This document shows positions 1 through 28,768 of a DNA stretch of 31,694 nt, in pieces. A program made the position numbers and the translations under genes. This DNA is from a virus, in IMG/VR virus record IMGVR_UViG_3300023184_000363, positions 1 to 31,694 of that record, one strand, 5' to 3'. Positions within the stretch are counted from its first letter, which is position 1; each line of letters opens with the position of its first letter. A model generated the notes under the pieces. That model had not been told where the DNA came from, ran no database searches, and saw only the letters and a list, made by a program, of their open reading frames with translations.

Positions 1-288
1 CTACTGATCGAAAACTATAATACGCCCGCTACAATAACTGAGTTAATGGAGCTGGGTGATCTAAGTACACTGGCTGAAACGCCCGCTGCGTGTAAAGCTT
101 ATCACCGCGATCGAAATGAACCGTGGGGTATGGTTGAGCCCAGAGATGTAAATGCCAGTGAAATAGCTAGCGTGGGGAAAGAGTACGGGGTAGATTATGT
201 GTACATTTATAATAACGAATTTGAATGGGAATGCTTCGATTATGAAGGCAATCCAGTAGAAATATTGAGCGAATTAGCTCTAAATTAG
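1..288 (+). CDS. Hypothetical protein, 5' end cut by window
   Basis: The reading frame is open from base 1 and ends in TAG at 286-288, so only the C-terminal 95 residues are seen. An internal ATG at 46 exists, but the frame continues upstream in good protein-like sequence (LLIENYNTPATITEL), so the gene probably begins outside the window. The visible part is acidic and ends with an aromatic segment, DYVYIYNNEFEWECFDYEG. I do not recognise a family. A strong hairpin (316-339) follows, which suggests the transcript ends here. Codon use is less AT-rich than in the structural genes further right and matches the small genes at 941-1931. Confidence 0.6.
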   Translation, partial: LLIENYNTPATITELMELGDLSTLAETPAACKAYHRDRNEPWGMVEPRDVNASEIASVGKEYGVDYVYIYNNEFEWECFDYEGNPVEILSELALN

Positions 289-315: not shown

Positions 316-339
316 GAGCTCGGGTTTCTACCCGGGCTC
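316..339 (+). terminator. GC-rich hairpin after the first gene
   Basis: GAGCTCGGGT (316-325) pairs with ACCCGGGCTC (330-339) around the loop TTCT: ten pairs, one of them G-T. It lies 27 nt after a stop codon. No clear T-tract follows (CTTCGCTG), so it is either an imperfect intrinsic terminator or an mRNA 3'-end stabiliser. Similar hairpins follow the genes at 883, 1231 and 1426. Confidence 0.55.
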
Positions 340-604
340 CTTCGCTGTCCAGCTGCTAGCGTTTCTGGGTATACGGTCCCCTCTGCTCATAGACTCCACC
401 CAACCACCCACCAAATATATAAAAAAATAGTTATGAATAATTATGAAAGGCAAAGTTAATTACTTATATTTAAGTATAATAAATAATTAAAAAGTTAATA
501 AAAATATATATAAAAATAATTAGAAATAGTTATAAATATATTTGAAAAGTAAAAATAAATTAATTATATTTAATTATATTAAAAATTATTAAAAATTATA
601 AATT
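340..604. other. Non-coding stretch: C-rich spacer, then extreme AT-rich leader
   Basis: No credible gene lies between 289 and 604. Bases 340-409 are C-rich and end in CTCCACCCAACCACCCACCA. From about 410 the composition flips to almost pure A/T with a little G; the only C bases between 410 and 898 are at 451 and 463. A TATATTTG at 537-544 fits the Bacteroidota -7 element TAnnTTTG, but I see no matching TTTG about 20 nt upstream. TATATTTA occurs at 465-472. This stretch presumably carries the promoter and leader of the gene at 605. Confidence 0.5.
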
Positions 605-898
605 ATGAATTTAAGTTTAAAGTGGTTAAAAGAGTATTTAATTGAAGTAGAAAATGATATATTAGATGATAATTATTTAGAAAATATTGAATGGATTAAG
701 AGTAATTTTAGTGATGAAGATGTAAGTGTAAGAGAGTGGTTAGATAAAGTAAAGGATTATTGGTATAAAGTAGGTGAAGAAGGTGGTGATAGTGAATTTA
801 TAGGTAATATGTTAGAAGATGGATTAAAATTAAGTAAAGAAGATGTAGATATGGTTATGAAAGAATATTGGAAAGATTGTTAATGGAATGGGGTAGGG
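464..898 (+). other. 435-nt cytosine-free tract on the + strand
   Basis: I read every base from 464 to 898 and found no C on the + strand, while G remains common; a hand count gives about 69 G in the 279-nt gene at 605-883. The tract covers the AT-rich leader, the whole coding sequence, the stop codon and the first arm of the following hairpin. The first C is at 899, in the hairpin loop. The genes on both sides use C normally. Confidence 0.9.
605..883 (+). CDS. Small acidic hypothetical protein encoded without any cytosine
   Basis: The gene encodes 92 residues from an ATG after an A/T-only leader. Because the coding strand lacks C, the protein has no Ala, Thr, Pro, His or Gln at all, and it is rich in Asp, Glu, Lys, Leu and Trp (five Trp). 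It still reads as a real soluble protein: amphipathic helices such as LKWLKEYLIEVENDIL and REWLDKVKDYWYKVGEE, a single Cys as the last residue, and sensible synonymous choices within the C-free code. I do not recognise a family. It is followed at once by a 9-bp hairpin (885-912), so it looks like its own transcription unit. Its base composition is unlike every other gene in the window, which suggests a special constraint, directional mutation or transfer. Confidence 0.75.
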   Translation: MNLSLKWLKEYLIEVENDILDDNYLENIEWIKSNFSDEDVSVREWLDKVKDYWYKVGEEGGDSEFIGNMLEDGLKLSKEDVDMVMKEYWKDC

Positions 899-912
899 CA
901 GGGCCCCATTCC
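885..912 (+). terminator. 9-bp hairpin between the C-free gene and the next cassette
   Basis: GGAATGGGG (885-893) pairs with CCCCATTCC (904-912) around a purine-rich loop, TAGGGCAGGG. It begins 2 nt after the stop codon of the 605 gene and ends directly at the TATCTTCACGG element of the next gene, so it separates two units. No T-tract follows. Confidence 0.55.
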
Positions 913-940: not shown

Positions 941-1231
941 ATGAACAAGAAAGAAATTAGAAGTGCAATTAATAAAGCAGCGTACGCGTTTGCTGAGTCA
1001 TTAGGGTATGAAATGCATGATGACGAGGGTGATGGTACCGTATTATTCGCTCCACACGACTACACCAGTGCAGACGATACGATCACATGGCATCGCAGCT
1101 CACATGACACGTGTGTGTTGAACTGGTCCAGTGATAAGACCAAAGCGGACGCTGATGCGATCGATGCACACATGAAACCGATCATCGAGCAATATAATAA
1201 TCAATATACACCGAAACATGCTACGGCATAG
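941..1231 (+). CDS. Hypothetical small protein
   Basis: The gene encodes 96 residues from the ATG directly after cassette element copy 1. The N-terminus looks helical (KKEIRSAINKAAYAFAESLGYEM). An acidic/aromatic central part and a TITWHRSSHDTCVLNWSS segment that could form a beta hairpin follow, then a helical C-terminus. It has no membrane segment or signal peptide, and I do not recognise a family. Its stop codon lies inside the right half of a hairpin (1210-1237), so termination of translation and the 3' RNA structure are coupled. Its C content is normal, in sharp contrast to the neighbour at 605. Confidence 0.7.
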   Translation: MNKKEIRSAINKAAYAFAESLGYEMHDDEGDGTVLFAPHDYTSADDTITWHRSSHDTCVLNWSSDKTKADADAIDAHMKPIIEQYNNQYTPKHATA

Positions 1232-18992: not shown

Positions 18993-21017
18993 ATGTCATC
19001 ATTCAAAAAACTAAGCAAATCAGACGTTACGCATGTACCATATGCTGCCAATAAGCAGTGGAACTTAACTTACTCTTCGGGGTATCCAAAGAATGATGGT
19101 TACGTAACAATATATAAAGGTACTAATTTAACTAGTAGCTTCGATTCTATTATGGATCCTGTAACTGAGGGTCAATATGAAGGTTTAGTTTATGATTCAA
19201 TAAATCATTTATTTTATCAAGAATTTAGTGGTTCTCTTTTAAATACTTCTTCTTTAGCAAATTCAATATTTTACGAATCTGCTTCTCAACAACGTCCTAC
19301 TTCATCATATTTTATTTATGATGAAAACCCTAAATTTAAAAATTATTTTCCTACAGGCTCTAATGAAGGTATTCGTGTATTAGGATTTAATCAAGAAATT
19401 TTTGGTAATAAATTATTACCTTATAACTTTATTTTATCATCATCTGCATATTATATAACAGATGATGGTAATGGCAATATATTAGATAATAATATTACTT
19501 ATGTAGGTAATATATTTTATCCTCAAGGTTTAGTTGTTATTACAAACCAAGACTATCAAGATATGTTCCCTCTACCTCCACTTGCGGTAGCGGATATTAT
19601 TAATGTTTTAGCAAGTGATTATGATAAAACGGGAAGTATATTAGATAATGATTTAGCTAGATTTGGATCTTTAGTTACAAGCTCTATTACATTATCAGGT
19701 AGTGCATTTCAAAAATCTACTATTAAACTTACAGGTAGTTATAATAGTGATGTTAGTATGGTTTCTAGTTCTAGCCCATATCCCTATTTCCAACAAGGGG
19801 TATATGATATCTACTATACAGTTAATTCTACTGGTAGCTTTGGATCTCTTACAAGCAATAAAGCATTAATCAGATTTAATGTTGGGGCTCCTGATTGTGA
19901 TTTTGAACCTGTATTAACTTTAATACCACCATCCCCAACGCCTACACCATCATTAACACCTAGTGTTACTAGAACTCCAAGTATAACACCTACTCCATCA
20001 TTAACACCTACTCCATCAATAACAGCAACACCATCATTAACTCCAACTCCTTCATTAACTGCAACACCATCATTAACTCCTAGTATTACTGCTACTCCAA
20101 GTATAACACCTACTCCATCATTAACACCTACTCCATCAATAACAGCAACTCCATCATTAACAGCTACTCCATCGTTAACACCTAGTGTTACTAGAACACC
20201 TAGTATTACTGCTACTCCATCGTTAACTCCTAGTATAACCCCAACTCTACCACCTTCCCCTACTCCATCATTAACACCAACCCCATCATTAACACCAACA
20301 CCATCAATTACCAGAACGCCTAGTATTACTGCTACACCATCATTAACACCAACACCATCAATAACTGCTACCCCATCATTAACAGCTACTCCATCATTAA
20401 CACCTAGTATTACTGCAACTCCAAGTATTACTGCAACTCCAAGTATTACTGCAACTCCAAGTATTACTGCTACTCCATCGTTAACACCAACACCAAGTAT
20501 TACTAGAACACCTGATCCAACTAGTACACCAAGTTTAACACCAACACCATCAATTACCAGAACGCCTAGCATTACTGCTACTCCAAGTATTACTAGAACA
20601 CCTAGTATAACTCCTACTCCATCATTAACACCTTCCGAATCTCCAATACCTCCAACATATACAGTTAATGTGTTTGCTAAATCAAGTGGACTTCTATCCC
20701 CTCAAGAATTTATTTGGTGGAGTGATGATGCTTGGGCTACACAAAATAAACTATCTACTGCAGTTACTACTTCAGGAGTTAATGCCGGTAATATACCTAA
20801 CGTAACTAGTGGAACAACAATACAATTTGCATGTTCTAATGGAACTGGTCCTATAACATCTGGAGCAGGTACAGCAATTAGTATAGCTGTGGGTAGTGGT
20901 TACCCAACAGGTCCTTCTAGTTGTGGCGCTTTACCTTATGGAGGTCAAGCTTATCAAGTATTCTCTAATGTTACCTTGTACTTTACAGCCAATTCTGGAT
21001 TCCAAGGATCTTGTTAA
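18993..21017 (+). CDS. Mucin-like Ser/Thr/Pro-repeat virion protein (putative adhesin)
   Basis: The gene encodes 674 residues in three parts. Residues 1 to ~312 are a beta-rich head with Ser/Tyr/Gly turns, similar in style to the preceding structural proteins, so it is probably the virion attachment part. Residues ~313-547 are about 39 hexapeptides of the form PS(I/L)T(A/P)T, sometimes with Arg (VTRTPS): an extended, rigid, mucin-like stalk in which about every second residue is Ser or Thr. Residues ~550-674 are a C-terminal globular domain ([12 protein letters not shown] ... [14 protein letters not shown] ... [12 protein letters not shown]) with three Cys. There is no signal peptide. The glycosyltransferase operon starts 43 nt downstream, so the stalk is the obvious candidate acceptor. 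A long antisense frame here is a by-product of the repeat. Confidence 0.75.
19931..20632 (+). repeat. About 700 bp of degenerate 18-bp coding repeats
   Basis: The period is 18 bp (six codons). Most units differ at synonymous third positions, but some are exact. AGTATTACTGCAACTCCA occurs three times in perfect tandem at 20406-20459. Bases 19974-20029 are repeated identically at 20094-20149, exactly 120 bp (40 codons) apart. The mix of old, diverged units and fresh copies points to continuing slippage or unequal recombination that keeps the frame. Confidence 0.85.
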
Positions 21018-21060: not shown

Positions 21061-22320
21061 ATGTCAAAAATCTTTGTTTCGATAGCATCCTATAGGGATC
21101 CTGAACTGCTACCAACATTACACGACTTAATAAGTAATGCTGCTAATCCTGATGATTTAGTGATATGCATTGCCTGGCAACATTCTAAAAAAGATAAATG
21201 GGATACTTTAAAAAAATATAAAAACGATACACGTTTTAGAATTATTGATATCCCATATGAAGAATCTAAAGGCGTATGTTGGGCTAGAGCTAAAATACAA
21301 GAACAATACCAAGGTGAAGATTATTATTTTCAATTAGATTCACATCACCGATTTATTAAAAATTGGGATAGAGAATTAATTGATATGTTACATTATTTAC
21401 AATGTAAAAGCTACCCTAAACCATTAATATCAGCATATATACCATCATATTTCCCAAATAAAGAACCAGATGGTAGAATTAATGAGGTATGGATGTTAAA
21501 TATTCAAAGATTTTTACCTGAAGGTGCTGTATTTTTAAACCCACAAGGATTAGATAACTGGAAAACCTTTAAAGAACCTGTACCTACCCGTTTTATATCA
21601 GCCCATTTTATTTTTACATTAGGTAAATTTGTTGAAGAAGTTCCATATGATCCTAATTTTTATTTTCATGGTGAAGAAACATCATTAGCTGCTCGTGCTT
21701 ACACTTGGGGTTATGATTTATTTAGTCCTCATAAAATATATGCTTGGCATGAATATTTTAGAGATGGTAAAACAAAACAATGGGATGATGATCCAATATA
21801 TGTAGAACGAGATAAAAGTTCATACGCTAGATTTAGAGCATTATTTGGAATGAATGAAGGTGATTGTGAAGGTTGTTCTCAAAAAGAATTTGGAAAATAT
21901 TGGTTTGGTAATAAAAGAATGTTACGAGATTATGAACGTTATGCTGGTTTAAAGTTTAGAACTAGACAAATACATAAGTATACTTTAACAAATAATCCCC
22001 CACCAACTAAAGGAGATTATGAATCGGGTTTACTTAGTAAAGTAAAGGTTTGTATAGATGTTTACAAAGGTTCTTTACCTGAACCGGATTATGATTTGTT
22101 TGTAATAGCATTATTAGATAAAAATGGTAAAGATATTTTTAGAAAAGATGCTGATGCTAATGAAATAAAATTCTTATTAAATGAACTTCCAAACGATCAA
22201 TTTGTACACATATGGAGAGAATTTGAAAGCGACATTCAACCCCATAAATGGAGAGTTTGGCCACATAGTGTATCTAAAGATTGGATGGACCCAATAGAAC
22301 AAGAAATAAAATATGAATAA
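21061..22320 (+). CDS. GT60/PF11397-like polypeptide GlcNAc-transferase homologue, copy 1
   Basis: The gene encodes 419 residues. The N-terminus IFVSIASYRDPELLPTLHDLISNAANPDDL and the block CWARAKIQEQYQGEDYYFQLDSHHRF (DSHHRF at 93-98, the metal/nucleotide-sugar site in place of DxD) are characteristic of PF11397. HGEE at 203-206, RAYTWGYDLFSP (212-223) and His230 follow in the expected order. Known members (Dictyostelium Gnt1, trypanosome mucin GlcNAc-transferase) add GlcNAc directly to hydroxyproline or Ser/Thr of proteins. The C-terminal ~100 residues form an extra domain shared with the next gene. It is first in the operon, next to the mucin-like gene. Family call is strong; donor and acceptor are inferred. 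Confidence 0.8.
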   Translation: MSKIFVSIASYRDPELLPTLHDLISNAANPDDLVICIAWQHSKKDKWDTLKKYKNDTRFRIIDIPYEESKGVCWARAKIQEQYQGEDYYFQLDSHHRFIKNWDRELIDMLHYLQCKSYPKPLISAYIPSYFPNKEPDGRINEVWMLNIQRFLPEGAVFLNPQGLDNWKTFKEPVPTRFISAHFIFTLGKFVEEVPYDPNFYFHGEETSLAARAYTWGYDLFSPHKIYAWHEYFRDGKTKQWDDDPIYVERDKSSYARFRALFGMNEGDCEGCSQKEFGKYWFGNKRMLRDYERYAGLKFRTRQIHKYTLTNNPPPTKGDYESGLLSKVKVCIDVYKGSLPEPDYDLFVIALLDKNGKDIFRKDADANEIKFLLNELPNDQFVHIWREFESDIQPHKWRVWPHSVSKDWMDPIEQEIKYE

Positions 22321-23581
22321 AAAAGAAACTATATTACTACATCTCCCAGCATATAGAGATCCGGAATTGATTCCCTCTATTAAAGATGCTTTAGCAAAAG
22401 CAAAATATCCAAAACGTATTCATTTTGGTATTTGTAGACAATATCATCCTGATGATACGTTTGATAATCTAGATGAATTTAGAAAGGATAAACGCTTTCA
22501 TATAATGGATGTGTTATATACTGAGGCACAAGGATTACCTTGGGCCCGCGCCCAAATTAATGAAAAATTATTAACTAATCAAGATTATATATTACAATTA
22601 GACTCACATCATCGATTTGCACAAGATTGGGATGTTACTTTAATTGATATGCATAATAAATTAGAGGAAAAAGGACATAAACCTATATTGGCCGCTTATC
22701 TGCCATTATACACCCCATTAAATGATCCTGAAGGACGTTCAATGGAACCTTGGCAACAACAGTTTGCTTGTTTTTATCCGCATGGTACGATTTTTATACG
22801 CCCGGGTTTATTACAAGGTCATCAATTTATGACAGAACCACCAATGTCACGTTTTTTATCGGGACATTTTTGCTTTGCTCGCTCTGAATGGGCTCGTGAA
22901 ATAAGACATGATACTGATATTTATTTTAGTGGTGAAGAATTAAATTTAACTGTTCGTTCATATACTCATGGTTATGATTTCTTCCACCCCCATAAATTAG
23001 TTATTTGGCATTCAACAATGAGAGAAGAAAGATCAGGTATACTTAAATGGGATGATGATGCTAAAGCTGGAAATGATTGGTGGAAAAAACAAGATTATGC
23101 TCGTAAAAAAATAAGAGTTTTATTACGTACTGAAGAAGACCCAAATATTGATTTAACAGGTTATGATTTAGGTACTGTAAGAACGTTACGTGATTTTGAA
23201 AAGTATGCTGGTTTTAACTTTAAGAAAAAAGCAGTACAAAAATATACTTTAGATAATTTTTACCCACCAAATCCATTAATTAAAGATGATGAATTGTGGG
23301 AACAATCATTTATGGAATCATTTTATTATTTAATAACAGTTGACAAAAATTTCTTCCCTGATGATAATTATAAATTTGTATTAATAGCGTTTGATGATGA
23401 AAATGGTAAAGCAATTAATACCAAATATGTAGATGGAGATGACTTAATACAATTTAACAAAGGACAAAATATTCATTATGAAGAATTCTTTTTAATTGAG
23501 AAAAAACCTGTTAGAGTTGTATATTGGGCTTATAGTGAGGCTAAAGGATGGTGTGAACGTTTAGAATACAAAATAGATTAA
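22313..23581 (+). CDS. GT60/PF11397-like polypeptide GlcNAc-transferase homologue, copy 2
   Basis: The gene encodes 422 residues and overlaps copy 1 by 8 nt. It has the same plan: LLHLPAYRDPELIPSIKDAL, PWARAQINEKLLTNQDYILQLDSHHRF (DSHHRF at 97-102), SGEE (206-209) in place of HGEE, RSYTHGYDFFHP (215-226) and His233. It is clearly a paralogue of copy 1 but well diverged, so the two probably differ in acceptor site or sugar. The C-terminal domain (FKFVLIAFDDENGKAIN) matches that of copy 1. All key residues look intact. Confidence 0.8.
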   Translation: MNKKETILLHLPAYRDPELIPSIKDALAKAKYPKRIHFGICRQYHPDDTFDNLDEFRKDKRFHIMDVLYTEAQGLPWARAQINEKLLTNQDYILQLDSHHRFAQDWDVTLIDMHNKLEEKGHKPILAAYLPLYTPLNDPEGRSMEPWQQQFACFYPHGTIFIRPGLLQGHQFMTEPPMSRFLSGHFCFARSEWAREIRHDTDIYFSGEELNLTVRSYTHGYDFFHPHKLVIWHSTMREERSGILKWDDDAKAGNDWWKKQDYARKKIRVLLRTEEDPNIDLTGYDLGTVRTLRDFEKYAGFNFKKKAVQKYTLDNFYPPNPLIKDDELWEQSFMESFYYLITVDKNFFPDDNYKFVLIAFDDENGKAINTKYVDGDDLIQFNKGQNIHYEEFFLIEKKPVRVVYWAYSEAKGWCERLEYKID

Positions 23582-24535
23582 ATGAACAAAATATTAATAG
23601 TACAAATGGCTCTAGGCCCAACCTACAAAGCCAGATTACTACATAATCTTCAAACATATCCAGCATACGATAAGTTTGATGTCTTTATTATGACTGATGA
23701 AGTTGAATACTTTAATCAAGTATCTCATAAATCTAATTTATATATTAATAATATAGATGAAATAAGAAAAGATTATCCTTGGTCTATTGAATTAGAAAAG
23801 GTACCACCTTTAATAAAGGATGAAGCTGAATTTGCTAAATATTGCTTAGAAAATAATGTAAAAATTCCTACGTTACTTCAAAGATTTTCTTTAAATTGGG
23901 AAAAATCATCTGATTATGATGGATTTATTTGGATGGATTGTGATGTTCTTCCTTTAGTAGATTCTGAAACTTATAATAAATTAGAAAATTATTTTACTAC
24001 TAAAGAAGATAAAGTAGTAATATTGCCTGTTGGTGGTACATATAATATGGATAATAATTCTTATATAAAAGACTTTGCATTATATATTAATGACAAATAT
24101 AAAATTACTAATAAAGAAGTAGTTGATAATAACTTTTTAACTACAGATGGTAATTTTAGAACTTTAAAATTTCCAAACAAAGAATATACTAAATATTTTT
24201 TTGAATTATTAAATAATGTAGCACATGACGTGCTAACAGATGATAAATATTTTTTAATAGGAGTGCACACTATGTGGAATCTCCATTCAGAATATATACT
24301 AGCTATACTTTTTAATTTATTAGAAGCTAAAGGATATCCATGGTCTGAAGATAAAGGAATAGACAGAAATAATAATAATTCTTTTAAATTATGTGGTTTC
24401 CCTGAAGATAGATTTTGGAGTTGGGCATTAGGTACAGTTATTCCATCACTCATTGGTAAACAAGATTTTATTGATAAAAATTATGATGGTTTAAAACAAT
24501 ACTATATAGATCATTTTCAAGAATTTCCTTATTAA
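23582..24535 (+). CDS. Putative glycosyltransferase, GT-A-like
   Basis: The gene encodes 317 residues and starts right after the copy 2 stop. The N-terminus (KILIVQMALGPTYKARLLHNLQTY) is a Rossmann-like strand-helix, and DGFIWMDCDVLPLV (Asp119 and Asp121) is the kind of DxD motif used by GT-A enzymes to hold a metal-bound nucleotide sugar. Later, PVGGTYNMDNNS and GVHTMWNLHSEYILAILFNLLEAKGYPWSEDKG could form the acceptor side. I cannot name a CAZy family. Its place inside the operon supports a sugar-transfer role. Confidence 0.6.
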   Translation: MNKILIVQMALGPTYKARLLHNLQTYPAYDKFDVFIMTDEVEYFNQVSHKSNLYINNIDEIRKDYPWSIELEKVPPLIKDEAEFAKYCLENNVKIPTLLQRFSLNWEKSSDYDGFIWMDCDVLPLVDSETYNKLENYFTTKEDKVVILPVGGTYNMDNNSYIKDFALYINDKYKITNKEVVDNNFLTTDGNFRTLKFPNKEYTKYFFELLNNVAHDVLTDDKYFLIGVHTMWNLHSEYILAILFNLLEAKGYPWSEDKGIDRNNNNSFKLCGFPEDRFWSWALGTVIPSLIGKQDFIDKNYDGLKQYYIDHFQEFPY

Positions 24536-24546
24536 AAAATAAAAAC

Positions 24547-25416
24547 ATGTTAAAATATTTTAAACCTTACAAAATTGATTCTCCTAAAGTTCGTTTAGGT
24601 AATAAAAGCGACGGTGGTTATGTTGTATCTGAAATAGTACTTAATAAATGTACTACCTTATTTACTTATGGTTATGGTGGTGATAAAAGTTATGAAGATG
24701 ACTTTATCGCTAAGTACGACAAACCAAACTACATATTTGATCATACTGGGCATCAAGAAAAATGGAGCCAAGGTGAGCAATACTTTTTCCCTGAAGGGTT
24801 AGGATCAAGTTTATCTAATAAAGATAAAGAAGTAAGTTTATTTAATGAATTGTATATAAGAAAAGATCTTTTAGACAAAGCATTTGATGACTTAAGTGAA
24901 GACCAAAGTGTAACTAAAGTAAAAAAGTATAAAAAATCATTAGATGTACTTTATGAATCAGTTAAAAATTTATCTGATCTTTTAAGTGTTAAAGATGTTA
25001 GGGAACATTATGATAGCTTAGGTATTCAAGGAGACATATTTTTAAAAATTGATACTGAAGGTGCTGAGTTTGATTATTTTTTAAATGCTGATATTGATGA
25101 TTTATCAACGTTTGTTTGTGGTATTGTAGTTGAAGTACATTGGTTAGAACAATTACAAAACCAAACTAAATTTATTGATATGATGGAAAAAATTAATAAG
25201 CATTTTATATTAACACACGTTCATGGTAATAATTGGGGTGGGGAATTTGAATATGAAGGTCATACAATACCTAGAGTACCAGAATTTTCATTTGTAAATA
25301 GAAAATATGTTACTGATTCAATATCTGATACTCAAGACTATCCAATCGTTGATTTAGATTATCCTAATAATACTAACATTGCCGATTGCAATCTAGACTT
25401 TTTAAAAACACTATAA
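24547..25416 (+). CDS. FkbM-like SAM-dependent methyltransferase
   Basis: The gene encodes 289 residues. VRLGNKSDGGYVVSE (15-29) is the N-terminal signature of FkbM/Methyltransf_21-type proteins. TLFTYGYGGDKSYEDDF (38-54) fits SAM-binding motif I, and FLKIDTEGAEFDYF (165-178) is the conserved FkbM motif. Such enzymes O-methylate sugars or polyketides. Here the likely target is a sugar placed by the neighbouring transferases; terminal methylation often caps a glycan. A ~70-residue helical insertion (about 95-165) separates the motifs, which is longer than usual. Confidence 0.7.
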   Translation: MLKYFKPYKIDSPKVRLGNKSDGGYVVSEIVLNKCTTLFTYGYGGDKSYEDDFIAKYDKPNYIFDHTGHQEKWSQGEQYFFPEGLGSSLSNKDKEVSLFNELYIRKDLLDKAFDDLSEDQSVTKVKKYKKSLDVLYESVKNLSDLLSVKDVREHYDSLGIQGDIFLKIDTEGAEFDYFLNADIDDLSTFVCGIVVEVHWLEQLQNQTKFIDMMEKINKHFILTHVHGNNWGGEFEYEGHTIPRVPEFSFVNRKYVTDSISDTQDYPIVDLDYPNNTNIADCNLDFLKTL

Positions 25417-25417
25417 T

Positions 25418-26263
25418 ATGATTTATATATCACTAACTACAGTTCCAGTACGAATGAGTTTTTGGAACGAATTTAAACAAAATCTTGATTCATTGTTAAA
25501 TCAAGATACTACAGCTGATTATAAAGTAGTATTAAATGTTCCATATCGTTATAAAAATAATAATGATGAAGAATATGTTATATCTGAAGATTTATTAAAA
25601 TATGTTGAGGAAAATCCTAAATTAATTATTAATAGAGTAGAAGATGATTTTGGTCCTGTGGTTAAGTTAACAGGTATGCTATTATATTCTAATAATCCTG
25701 ACGATATTTTAATTGTATGTGATGACGATCACGTCTATCACAAAGATATGTTAGAATATCATTTAAAAAAACGCAATGAATACCCAAATGATGCTATTTG
25801 CTTTAGAGGTGATACACCAGTACAGAAAAGAGGATGGGTGGAAGACGGAGTAAAAAAATATACATTACCAAATACTCATACTTTTTTCCCAGCTAAATTT
25901 GATATTCAGTTAAATGTACCAGGGCATTGGCACTCAGTTGGTTATAAAAGAGAATTTTTTAATGATGATTTTTTAGATAAAGATTTTTTAACAGCTTGTG
26001 ATAATGATGATGTTCTTGTAGGATATTATTTTAGAAAATATCAAAGACTTATTACATGCGTTGCCTGGGATAAAGAAACGGACTTTAGAGCAGTAAATGA
26101 TCTTGGTCGTGGTGCTCATCATTTCCCAATAATTAATCCATTACCTTTCCCAAGTTCTGGATTTAACGAATTTAGAGCTAAAAGTGGAGACCATATGGGT
26201 CGTTCACAGGATTTTATTTGGGAATTATTAAATAATCATAACACAATATATACAGAAAAATAA
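25418..26263 (+). CDS. GT-A glycosyltransferase, paralogue A
   Basis: The gene encodes 281 residues. It begins with a GT-A strand (YISLTTVPVRMSFW ... NLDSLLNQ), then YKVVLNVPYRYK, FGPVVKLTGML and ILIVCDDDHVYH (CDDD at 101-104), the metal-binding DxD. A His-rich segment near the C-terminus (GRGAHHFP) may contribute to catalysis or metal binding. The next gene is a clear paralogue. There is no membrane segment, so it should act in the cytoplasm. Donor sugar unknown. Confidence 0.7.
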   Translation: MIYISLTTVPVRMSFWNEFKQNLDSLLNQDTTADYKVVLNVPYRYKNNNDEEYVISEDLLKYVEENPKLIINRVEDDFGPVVKLTGMLLYSNNPDDILIVCDDDHVYHKDMLEYHLKKRNEYPNDAICFRGDTPVQKRGWVEDGVKKYTLPNTHTFFPAKFDIQLNVPGHWHSVGYKREFFNDDFLDKDFLTACDNDDVLVGYYFRKYQRLITCVAWDKETDFRAVNDLGRGAHHFPIINPLPFPSSGFNEFRAKSGDHMGRSQDFIWELLNNHNTIYTEK

Positions 26264-26268
26264 ACAAA

Positions 26269-27072
26269 ATGAACAAAGTAATTGTAACACTAACAACATT
26301 ACCAACTAGAATAACTCAAGATTATGATGCTGGTATTAAAAGCAATATTGACTCTTTAATCAACCAAGATTATGAGGGGGAGTATGAAATTCACTTTAAT
26401 GTACCTACAGTATTAAAATATACAGGTGAGGAGTATATTATTCCTGAATGGATGAAAGAATTATCAACAACAAATCCTAAATTCAAAATATTTGATAACT
26501 TGGAGGATTTAGGACCTGTTACTAAATTGTATCATACTTTACAACGTATAGATGATCCTGAAGCAATTATTATTGTTTGTGATGATGATTTAGTTTACCA
26601 CCCAGGAATGGTTGCTGAACAAGTTAGAAATCAAAATAGATTTGTTAATACTGCTGTTGGGTATGATGGAACTAGAGCTGAAAATATAGAATTTGATGAT
26701 GTTAGACAACATTATGTAGTATCTGTTCCTAGAGATGTTGAAGTAAATCGTTTACAACATTACAAGACAGTATCTTATAGACGCAAATGGTTTGAAAATG
26801 ATTTTTTTACTGATTTTGTAGGCAAATCATGGAATGATGATATATTAGTAAGTGCTTATATGGGTAAGCAAGGAATTAGAAGATTAGTTGCTACCTATGA
26901 ACATGAAGAACAATTAATTACTATTGAACAATGGCAAGAAAAAGGTGGAGTAACAACTTTCCCTGTATTACGCCATACTTCTCATGAAGGTCAAGAAGGT
27001 TGTAATTTATATAGACAAGCTCAATTAGATGAGAATTTTATGGATTTTGTAAATTTAGGATACTTAAAATAA
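26269..27072 (+). CDS. GT-A glycosyltransferase, paralogue B
   Basis: The gene encodes 267 residues with the same order of motifs as its neighbour: VIVTLTTLPTRIT, SLINQDYEGEYEIHFNVP, LGPVTKLYHTL and IIIVCDDDLVYH (CDDD at 104-107). The C-terminal halves differ, and the His-rich segment of paralogue A is replaced here by LRHTSHEGQEG. Together with the PF11397 pair this makes two duplicated enzyme pairs in one operon, as expected for stepwise chain extension. Confidence 0.7.
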   Translation: MNKVIVTLTTLPTRITQDYDAGIKSNIDSLINQDYEGEYEIHFNVPTVLKYTGEEYIIPEWMKELSTTNPKFKIFDNLEDLGPVTKLYHTLQRIDDPEAIIIVCDDDLVYHPGMVAEQVRNQNRFVNTAVGYDGTRAENIEFDDVRQHYVVSVPRDVEVNRLQHYKTVSYRRKWFENDFFTDFVGKSWNDDILVSAYMGKQGIRRLVATYEHEEQLITIEQWQEKGGVTTFPVLRHTSHEGQEGCNLYRQAQLDENFMDFVNLGYLK

Positions 27073-27073
27073 T

Positions 27074-28768
27074 ATGAATAAAGACTTAACCATAGTAACA
27101 GGTTTGTGGAATATTAGTAGACCAGGACGTTCTTTTGATCACTATATTCAACATTTTAACCATTTTTTAGACATAGATGCTAATTTATTTATTTATATTC
27201 CTCAAGAATATGAACATTTAGTTTGGGCTAAAAGATCAAAAGAAAATACTTTTGTTAAGGTTTATGAATTAGATGATGTAAAAAAATTATATTCTCCATT
27301 TTGGGATAAAACTCAACAAATAAGAACAAATCCTGAATGGTTAAATTTAACAGGCCCTGGTGGTTGGTTACCTGGTAGTCCTCAAGCAGCTAATGAATGG
27401 TATAATCCAATTGTAATGTCTAAAATGTTTATGTTACATGATGCTACTCTTTGGAATCCATTTGATACAGAATATTTTATTTGGTTAGATGCTGGTATTA
27501 CAAATACTGTTTATGAAAAATTCTTTACTGAACAAAAAGTTTTAGATAAAATAACAAATCATTTAAATCCATTTTTATTCTTATCTTATCCATATGCTGC
27601 TACAGATGAAATACATGGTTTTAAATTTAAAGAAATAAATGAATATTGTGATACTACTGCTGAATGGGTTTGTAGAGGTGGGTTGTTTGGTGGTACTAAA
27701 AAAGCAATTCATGAAGCAAATGGATTATATTATTCTTTAGTAGATAAATCCTTAGCTCAAGGCTTAATGGGTACTGAAGAAAGCATATTTTTAATAATGT
27801 CTTATTTAGAACCAGAAAAATATAGGCGTTATGCTTTAGATTCAAATGGCTTGATTATTAAATTTATTCAAGCATTAGATGAAAATAAAGTTGAACTAGA
27901 ACCCATACCAGAAACACGTACACAATTTATTGAAAAATCATTATCATTGGATGATATAAAAACATCATTATATGTTTTAACATTCAATTTTCCTCAACAA
28001 TTACAAACATTGTTAGATAGTTACGAAAAACATCCTGAATGGTTAAAACGTACTCGTAAAATATTAATTGATAATTCTACAGATGCTATTGCTAAAATTA
28101 ATAATAAAGAAATAGCAGATAAATATGGGTTTGAACATATTATAACTGGTAAAAATGGTGGTATATGTGGTGGTAGACAAATTGTAGCAGAACACTTCCA
28201 TGAATCCGATAGTGATTATTATATATTTTTAGAAGATGATATGTGTATACATGAACCATCTATGGAAGGTAAATTTTGTAGAAATGGATTTAGGCAGTAT
28301 ATTCCTAACTTATATGATAAAATTCATAAAATTATGATTAAGGAAAAATTTGATTTCCTTAAATTATCATATACAGAAGTATACATGGATAATAATATTC
28401 AAGTATCTTGGTATAATGTTCCTCAAAGCGTTAGAACAGAAATGTGGCCTGAATATGATAAATTACCTACAACTGGTTTAGATCCTAATACACCTCGTGC
28501 TAATTTTAAAAATATTAATGTTTTAGACGAATTAAGCTACATTTCAGGTGAAATTTATTATGCTAATTGGCCTATGATTGTTAGTAAAGAGGGTAATAAA
28601 AAAATGTTTATTGATACTAAATGGGCACACCCATACGAACAAACATGGATGAGCCAAATGTTCCAAGATACTCGCAGCAATAAACTAAAACCAGCAGTGT
28701 TATTAGCATCCCCGGTTAACCATAATAGAATAATATGGTATAAGCCTGAAGAAAGACGTGAAAATTAA
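27074..28768 (+). CDS. Two-domain glycosyltransferase (HtrL/YibB-like plus GT2-like)
   Basis: The gene encodes 564 residues. Residues 1 to ~285 resemble the HtrL/YibB family: LTIVTGLWNISRPGRS, FNHFLDIDANLFIYIP, FIWLDAGITNTVY (135-147), WVCRGGLFGGTKKAI and GTEESIFLIM. Residues ~295-564 look like a second GT-A domain: SLYVLTFNFPQQLQTLLDSY, RKILIDNSTD, and YYIFLEDDMCIHEPS with the EDDM acidic motif at 387-390. A fusion like this would let one protein add two successive sugars. It is the last gene of the operon. Confidence 0.7.
   Translation: MNKDLTIVTGLWNISRPGRSFDHYIQHFNHFLDIDANLFIYIPQEYEHLVWAKRSKENTFVKVYELDDVKKLYSPFWDKTQQIRTNPEWLNLTGPGGWLPGSPQAANEWYNPIVMSKMFMLHDATLWNPFDTEYFIWLDAGITNTVYEKFFTEQKVLDKITNHLNPFLFLSYPYAATDEIHGFKFKEINEYCDTTAEWVCRGGLFGGTKKAIHEANGLYYSLVDKSLAQGLMGTEESIFLIMSYLEPEKYRRYALDSNGLIIKFIQALDENKVELEPIPETRTQFIEKSLSLDDIKTSLYVLTFNFPQQLQTLLDSYEKHPEWLKRTRKILIDNSTDAIAKINNKEIADKYGFEHIITGKNGGICGGRQIVAEHFHESDSDYYIFLEDDMCIHEPSMEGKFCRNGFRQYIPNLYDKIHKIMIKEKFDFLKLSYTEVYMDNNIQVSWYNVPQSVRTEMWPEYDKLPTTGLDPNTPRANFKNINVLDELSYISGEIYYANWPMIVSKEGNKKMFIDTKWAHPYEQTWMSQMFQDTRSNKLKPAVLLASPVNHNRIIWYKPEERREN

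Follow-up and report, generated by a model that had tools for sequence, protein, structure and literature searches.

The locus

The DNA analysed here (the window) comprises positions 1 to 31,694 of the IMG/VR virus record IMGVR_UViG_3300023184_000363, 31,694 nucleotides in all. It belongs to a T4-like myovirus that shares 47% identity with Flavobacterium phage immuto in the baseplate wedge protein. Genes for DNA ligase, a DnaB-type helicase and thymidylate synthase, among others, are present on a 167-kb sibling contig. The carriers are regarded as viruses of Flavobacterium-type bacteria. The 167-kb sibling phage also encodes a PARP-type ADP-ribosyltransferase, a TROVE (Ro60-like) RNA-binding protein and a NAMPT-like enzyme (L055:6217-7428, L057:13919-15460, L057:1096-2472). 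In the window, glycosyltransferase- and methyltransferase-like ORFs stand behind the tail genes (21061-28768) and are conserved in the genome G001.

Near the left end of the window, a small gene without a single C on its coding strand occupies a slot between two ordinary genes (Table 1).

Table 1. Features of the cytosine-free unit and its borders in the window
Feature	Position	Strand	Remarks
MATRSLIG-family ordinary gene (phrog_1987)	46..288	+	Normal C content; left border of the cassette slot
Hairpin GAGCTCGGG/CCCGGGCTC	316..339	+	Closes the upstream C-containing gene; from sequence
Predicted promoter	442..472	+	Degenerate -33 element TATG (442-445), 19-nt spacer AAAGGCAAAGTTAATTACT, -7 box TATATTTA (465-472)
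C-free tract	464..898	+	435 nt, by base count
C-free 5' leader	473..604	+	Predicted transcription start a few nt past the -7 box
C-free ORF CF92, 92 aa	605..883	+	From sequence and model; no known family
3' hairpin GGAATGGGG ... CCCCATTCC, probable terminator	885..912	+	dG -18.5 kcal/mol
MNKKEI-family ordinary gene	941..1231	+	Normal C content; right border of the slot, conserved in siblings

The hairpin upstream of the unit probably insulates it against read-through, and the same or a similar hairpin is found upstream at the loci L007, L010, L020 and L032. Housekeeping promoters of the Bacteroidota follow the consensus TTTG-N19-TAnnTTTG; judged by its motifs, the window promoter, with TATG and TATATTTA, fits this type, and its alleles in L002, L020, L022 and L029 have TTTG at -33. 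One block of the leader is common to L007 and, less closely, to L020. A repeated promoter/leader, TATATTCACGGTATAAAAATTAAA-ATG, serves the ordinary small genes (at 912-1500 in the window and between most small genes); it is unlike the C-free promoter, and its immuto counterpart is TATCTTTAGGTATCAATAATTAAAAC.

A transcription unit without cytosine

A previous inspection of the letters alone (the sequence-only reading) had described 464-898 as free of C with a coding part of about one quarter G, and recounting bore this out exactly. The 435 nt of the + strand consist of 201 A, 84 G and 150 T, bounded by C463 at the 5' side and C899 at the 3' side, and the ORF contains 69 G in 279 nt (24.7%). Its translation into 92 residues likewise agrees with that reading in lacking Ala, Thr, Pro, His and Gln altogether. 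Chance had been called implausible, which simulation confirmed: in 300 windows generated by an order-3 Markov model built on the remainder of the window, the longest C- or G-free run had a mean of 65 nt and never exceeded 112 nt. The second-longest run without C in the window itself is 71 nt. Under the window's codon usage, the probability that this protein would be encoded without any C is about 10^-6.9, and that of 92 residues without Ala, Thr, Pro, His and Gln about 10^-9.7.

The window also contains a long repeat with extreme C-rich skew and an 80-nt G-free run (19814-20572, within the structural protein ORF 18993-21017). Homologous repeats account for a 172-nt C-free antisense run in L045 (14188-14359), which lies antisense to a Thr/Pro/Ser repeat gene and was rejected as unrelated to the C-free units.

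The limits of the tract coincide with signals of transcription. At the 5' side, the last C (463) sits 2 nt upstream of the -7 box and the C-free run begins 1 nt before it, thus the tract starts at the promoter, a point that the sequence-only reading had overlooked. It had correctly placed the 3' end in a terminator loop: position 899, where the unit has its first C, falls within the loop of a perfect 9-bp hairpin (885-893/904-912) whose 5' arm is C-free. The run also starts 1 nt before the -7 box in L010, L020, L032 and L025; in L002 the last C lies inside the -7 box, and in L007 and L044 the run starts 13-31 nt earlier. Runs continue for 15-74 nt after the last stop and mostly end in a terminator-like hairpin, except in L025 and L026, where they end a few codons before the last stop (within a hairpin in L026). 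In the window, L010, L020 and L032 there is strictly no C from the -7 box to the stop codon. Furthermore, C is likewise missing from the untranslated leaders (~40-140 nt) and the 3'UTRs, which rules out codon usage and the protein as the cause. These promoter and terminator bounds, which recur across unrelated genes, strongly support the proposal that the tract corresponds to a unit of transcription and not to a reading frame.

Recurrence in other phages

Siblings were located via a neighbouring gene, with the slot defined as the interval between the MATRSLIG and MNKKEI genes, and further loci (L020, L022, L032, L029/L044, L025 and L026) came from scans with the L007 protein and a conserved 3'UTR motif. 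The prevalence of C-free units is that seen through protein and motif scans only. L002 carries a close homologue of the window gene (96% amino acid identity), C-free over 331 nt. In L007 the slot is occupied by a gene that encodes 123 aa and belongs to a tract of 592 nt without C; in L010 it holds one for a 74-aa protein (275 nt C-free), and in L009 part of an L007-type gene. The C-free tracts measure 597 nt in L020 and 488 nt in L032, both again in this slot, and 479 nt in L022, up to the contig end. C-free operons occur in members of the group that are less closely related: the one in L029/L044 has 828 nt with two ORFs. In L025 the tract reaches 1,890 nt and spans four ORFs, three of them wholly C-free; the fourth and last holds a single C, immediately beyond the tract and three codons ahead of the stop. 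L026 has C-free stretches of 245, 445, 548 and 333 nt with a single C between each, in every case 6 nt ahead of the next promoter's -7 box, and two C within a hairpin precede the stop of its last ORF by a few codons.

C-freeness is carried by at least eight unrelated protein families. In an all-against-all BLAST, the wholly C-free proteins formed eight sequence families (CF92, CF123, CF74, CF55, L025_149/114, L025_176, L026_128 and L026_70), and three more are nearly C-free (L025_96, L026_96 and L092_72). In other siblings the slot is empty or filled by ordinary C-containing genes, and in several large relatives no C-free run reaches 178 nt, which marks the units as accessory.

The 3'UTR motif, AATGAAATAGTTTGAAAATAT, is conserved in L007, L009, L020, L022, L025, L026, L028-L030, L032 and L033. 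It follows C-free ORFs or separates them, and in L022 and L029 a further promoter, TTTG...TATATTTA, comes directly after it. Of the twelve contigs matched by this motif, several stop inside or beside a C-free tract, either at their start (L009, L022, L030) or at their end (L028, L033). Assembly may break there on a shared, exchanged cassette or through poor coverage of C-free DNA.

Conservation, exchange and base composition

In the CF123 family, zero C is retained down to ~35-40% amino acid identity. Pairs of its members differ at up to 146 nt (L022 and L026), and none of these differences involves C; in the adjacent MNKKEI gene, 34-68% of the differences between such phages do. Homologues with normal C content were looked for, as the sequence-only reading had suggested. 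No C occurs in the available sequence of any of the seven L007-type members or of the window gene's close homologue. The distant L083 homologue, with 32% amino acid identity to the window gene and differences at 116 of 273 nt, contains just 2 C in 276 nt. The L083 gene has an ordinary phage promoter and a leader that contains C, and the constraint there looks relaxed or not yet complete.

Between the window and L002, 6 of 276 nt differ in the CF92 ORF and 91 of 285 in the next gene: C-free cassettes move between phages. Together, the loci define a class of accessory, horizontally exchanged units whose predicted RNA has no C from the promoter to the stop codon or terminator, irrespective of the protein encoded.

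The place of the missing C is filled by A and G. G makes up 13-29% of C-free ORFs compared with 15% of ordinary genes and is not avoided, and T is unchanged (34.2% vs 33.3%). Conversion of C to T in ordinary genes would give 47% T, 10.7% Phe and 14.5% Ile, whereas C-free ORFs show no enrichment of Phe (3.2%, against 4.7% in ordinary genes) or Ile (8.3%). C-to-T hypermutation should add as much T as C is lost and enrich Val, Ile, Phe and Tyr, a signature that the C-free ORFs do not show. With T at the ordinary level, C-to-T deamination did not produce the tract, and the strand-specific deamination that the sequence-only reading had offered as an alternative is disfavoured. Its other alternative, origin in an element with extreme skew, fares no better, since the bounds are those of single transcription units across phages and gene families. 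General skew and low GC were likewise rejected as the cause.

The encoded proteins

The proteins of the C-free units are small and have no known relatives. CF92 is acidic (25 D/E vs 11 K/R). Structure prediction, a check that had been proposed from the sequence, yielded a compact, mostly helical model, a confident five-helix fold (pLDDT 89.6, pTM 0.80). Profile searches of Pfam, PHROGs, PADLOC and PDB gave no credible match (best E ~0.01, far short of the cut-offs), and no relatives were found in phage or plasmid collections, GTDB genomes or PDB sequences. A single GTDB match to 18 residues of a Ligilactobacillus contig was discarded as chance, as were the AT-rich matches that were all BLASTN of the tract returned from phages. 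Searching with the structure gave nothing in BFVD at E<=0.001 and a best PDB Z of 3.3. The CF123-family model, a helical hairpin with a small C-terminal part, found no significant match in a fold search, and many short structure-search matches were dismissed as coincidences of 14-19 residues. Small, swappable accessory genes behind host-type promoters would fit early takeover or counter-defence functions.

A cultured relative

Gene gp143 (68330-68686) of Flavobacterium phage vB_FspM_immuto contains 5 C in 357 nt (1.4%), with a longest C-free stretch of 158 nt; each of the other annotated genes examined in the same 11-kb stretch has at least 5.5% C. The gp143 leader, GTTATTAATAATTAAAAATATAAAAGTT, has no C. 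One further promoter-like leader in the stretch is also without C, and almost every other one (GGTATCAATAATTAAAAC...) contains between one and four. The gp143 protein may be a distant homologue of the C-free L025_114, to judge from a weak alignment (34% over 59 aa, pairwise E 2e-4). Immuto (genus Immutovirus) thus resembles the window phage both in its baseplate wedge and in having a nearly C-free gene. However, it differs from the C-free units in that its tract is shorter and gp143 has the promoter type usual in that phage. Having such a gene in a cultured phage puts the question within reach of experiments.

Possible causes of cytosine loss

The cause is very probably purifying selection against each C in the transcript, or against each G in the template strand, rather than mutation. 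Absence of C from the RNA is equally absence of G from the template and of C from the non-template strand. Zero C over ~2 kb implies a severe penalty for every C when these genes are expressed, one that is absent or bypassed for the rest of the genome. At about even odds, Bacteroidota phages exchange a set of genes written in three-letter (A, G, U) mRNA that alone would be expressed when cytidine in RNA is blocked, be it by CTP depletion, by a CTP-analogue terminator or by a C-cutting nuclease. If true, this would add a new layer to the conflict between phage and host, in which nucleotide choice itself is the counter-defence.

The favoured form of this idea, given a probability of roughly 0.35, is that the units may be natural C-less cassettes, expressed under CTP shortage or in the presence of a chain-terminating CTP analogue. 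Host RNA polymerase would transcribe them early in infection, and transcription would be completed even if CTP were exhausted or replaced by a chain terminator such as ddhCTP. Small host-takeover or counter-defence proteins would still be made while C-containing transcripts fail, and C would be tolerated only in places where the damage is small, namely ahead of the start site and in terminator hairpins that follow the stop codon or lie within a few codons of it. In support of this reading, unrelated ORFs that share one slot are all C-free. Counting against it, the phages' other genes contain C yet must be expressed too, and a strict block without CTP would not forgive the C near the stop in the last ORFs of L025 and L026. 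Moreover, L083, L092 and immuto retain 1-5 C, so the constraint is not absolute everywhere. Published work on viperins reportedly points to T7 RNA polymerase, rather than the host polymerase, as the enzyme inhibited by ddhCTP; since the C-free promoters are of host type, this weakens the CTP/ddhCTP idea, which the sequence-only reading had already raised and with which the pattern is compatible.

Other explanations place the penalty elsewhere. A nuclease of host defence or phage shut-off could cleave at cytidines and spare C-free mRNAs, a doubtful account but the one that comes nearest to CTP shortage in probability; RNA without C would withstand either condition. It predicts equal boundaries and the same indifference to the protein, and the residual C of L026 lie in hairpin stems, which a single-strand nuclease would spare. 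Such escape works in the laboratory, where MazF cuts at ACA and ACA-less mRNAs allow single-protein production (PMC9102682, PMC5408214). However, the account needs a single-base C-specific nuclease; none is known to act here, and none was identified in a partial scan of the phage genes. The penalty could also lie in the template, if 7-deazaguanine-modified phage G hindered host RNA polymerase in placing C; C-free genes would then be genes with G-free templates. G001 encodes the full preQ0 set of FolE, QueD, QueE and QueC (pathway coordinates L055:15909-18108 and L054:1512-1976; QueC at G001:67328-67963), and QueC is present in 7 of 7 large family genomes tested (G001, G016-G020 and immuto), the window contig being a fragment that lacks the region. 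W02 and W03, which are without QueC, also have no C-free run of at least 146 nt. Replacement of G, by dADG, is known from Campylobacter phages of the DpdA-lacking group (PMC6884629), and from its gene content the DNA of these Bacteroidota myoviruses may be G-modified. As an explanation of C-freeness this is nevertheless unlikely: G017, G018 and G020 have QueC, yet no C-free run of at least 178 nt, and a PF01702 search found no TGT/DpdA-type enzyme, a negative that leaves room for divergent TGT/DpdA or dNTP-level routes.

Selection for unstructured mRNA, for Rho immunity or for both appears improbable as well. Rho prefers YC sites, and an mRNA without C has neither G-C pairs nor YC sites for the primary RNA-binding site of Rho; C-free mRNAs should escape it. 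This would aid translation without a Shine-Dalgarno sequence and keep AT-rich foreign genes from being silenced. Folding energies are -6 to -11 kcal/mol per 100 nt for C-free ORFs compared with -18 for ordinary genes, and -10 to -17 kcal/mol per 100 nt when the same proteins are recoded with ordinary codons. Bacteroidota mRNAs are without Shine-Dalgarno sequences and their initiation is tuned by mRNA structure (PMC6847099), which is in keeping with such selection. However, these benefits, though real, are graded, and a low number of C would suffice for them; they leave zero C over 1,890 nt and the loss of Ala, Thr, Pro, His and Gln unexplained, and neighbouring genes in the same phages did not go that way. 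A mutational origin is very improbable. Transcription-coupled deamination of cytosine by a phage or host deaminase, acting on the single-stranded non-template strand in the bubble, would give identical boundaries, but T stands at 34.2%, like the ordinary 33.3%, instead of 47%, and Phe and Ile are not enriched. Base-converted reads, mis-assembly or low complexity by chance would be compatible with the contigs that end within the tract (L009, L022, L028, L030, L033). However, the pattern is seen again and again in metagenomes assembled independently, ordinary C content resumes within a few bases of it, the ORFs are intact and their proteins conserved, T is not raised, and a near-C-free gene is found in sequenced isolates, so that an artefact is hardly credible.

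Whichever agent is responsible, C-freeness is a sign of strong pressure that acts during infection on C in RNA (or on G in the template), and finding that pressure would expose a new principle of host defence or phage shut-off. C-free ORFs are also an easily searched signature, whose bearers in phages and plasmids are candidate early takeover or anti-defence genes.

Comparison with known systems

The literature consulted, mostly outside subscription papers, where a precedent is possible, reports no natural C-free genes but only laboratory C-less cassettes and ACA-less messages. We know of no precedent for whole transcription units that lack one base across unrelated genes. Prokaryotic viperins, which make ddhCTP, ddhUTP and ddhGTP, are a host defence that renders the incorporation of C into RNA dangerous (PMC10732462). 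A gene without C would escape ddhCTP, a tie that is hypothetical for these phages, but not ddhUTP or ddhGTP. The 7-deazaguanine modification of phage DNA (FolE/QueD/QueE/QueC) has its pathway in the window's phage family, but its known role is protection from restriction. We know of no effect of this modification on the base composition of genes. Host shut-off by T4 Alc is a cytosine-based discrimination of transcription in a T4-type phage; however, Alc acts on DNA with unmodified cytosine, whereas the C-free units lack C on one strand of selected genes. In single-protein production with MazF, an ACA-less message without the nuclease target outlives global mRNA destruction, as a C-free mRNA might; that system is engineered and based on a motif, while the C-free units miss a whole letter and their nuclease is only hypothetical. 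The C-less (G-less) cassettes used in vitro likewise combine a promoter with a C-free tract from which RNA can be made without CTP, but these are laboratory constructs, whereas the phage units are natural, coding, multi-gene and evolving.
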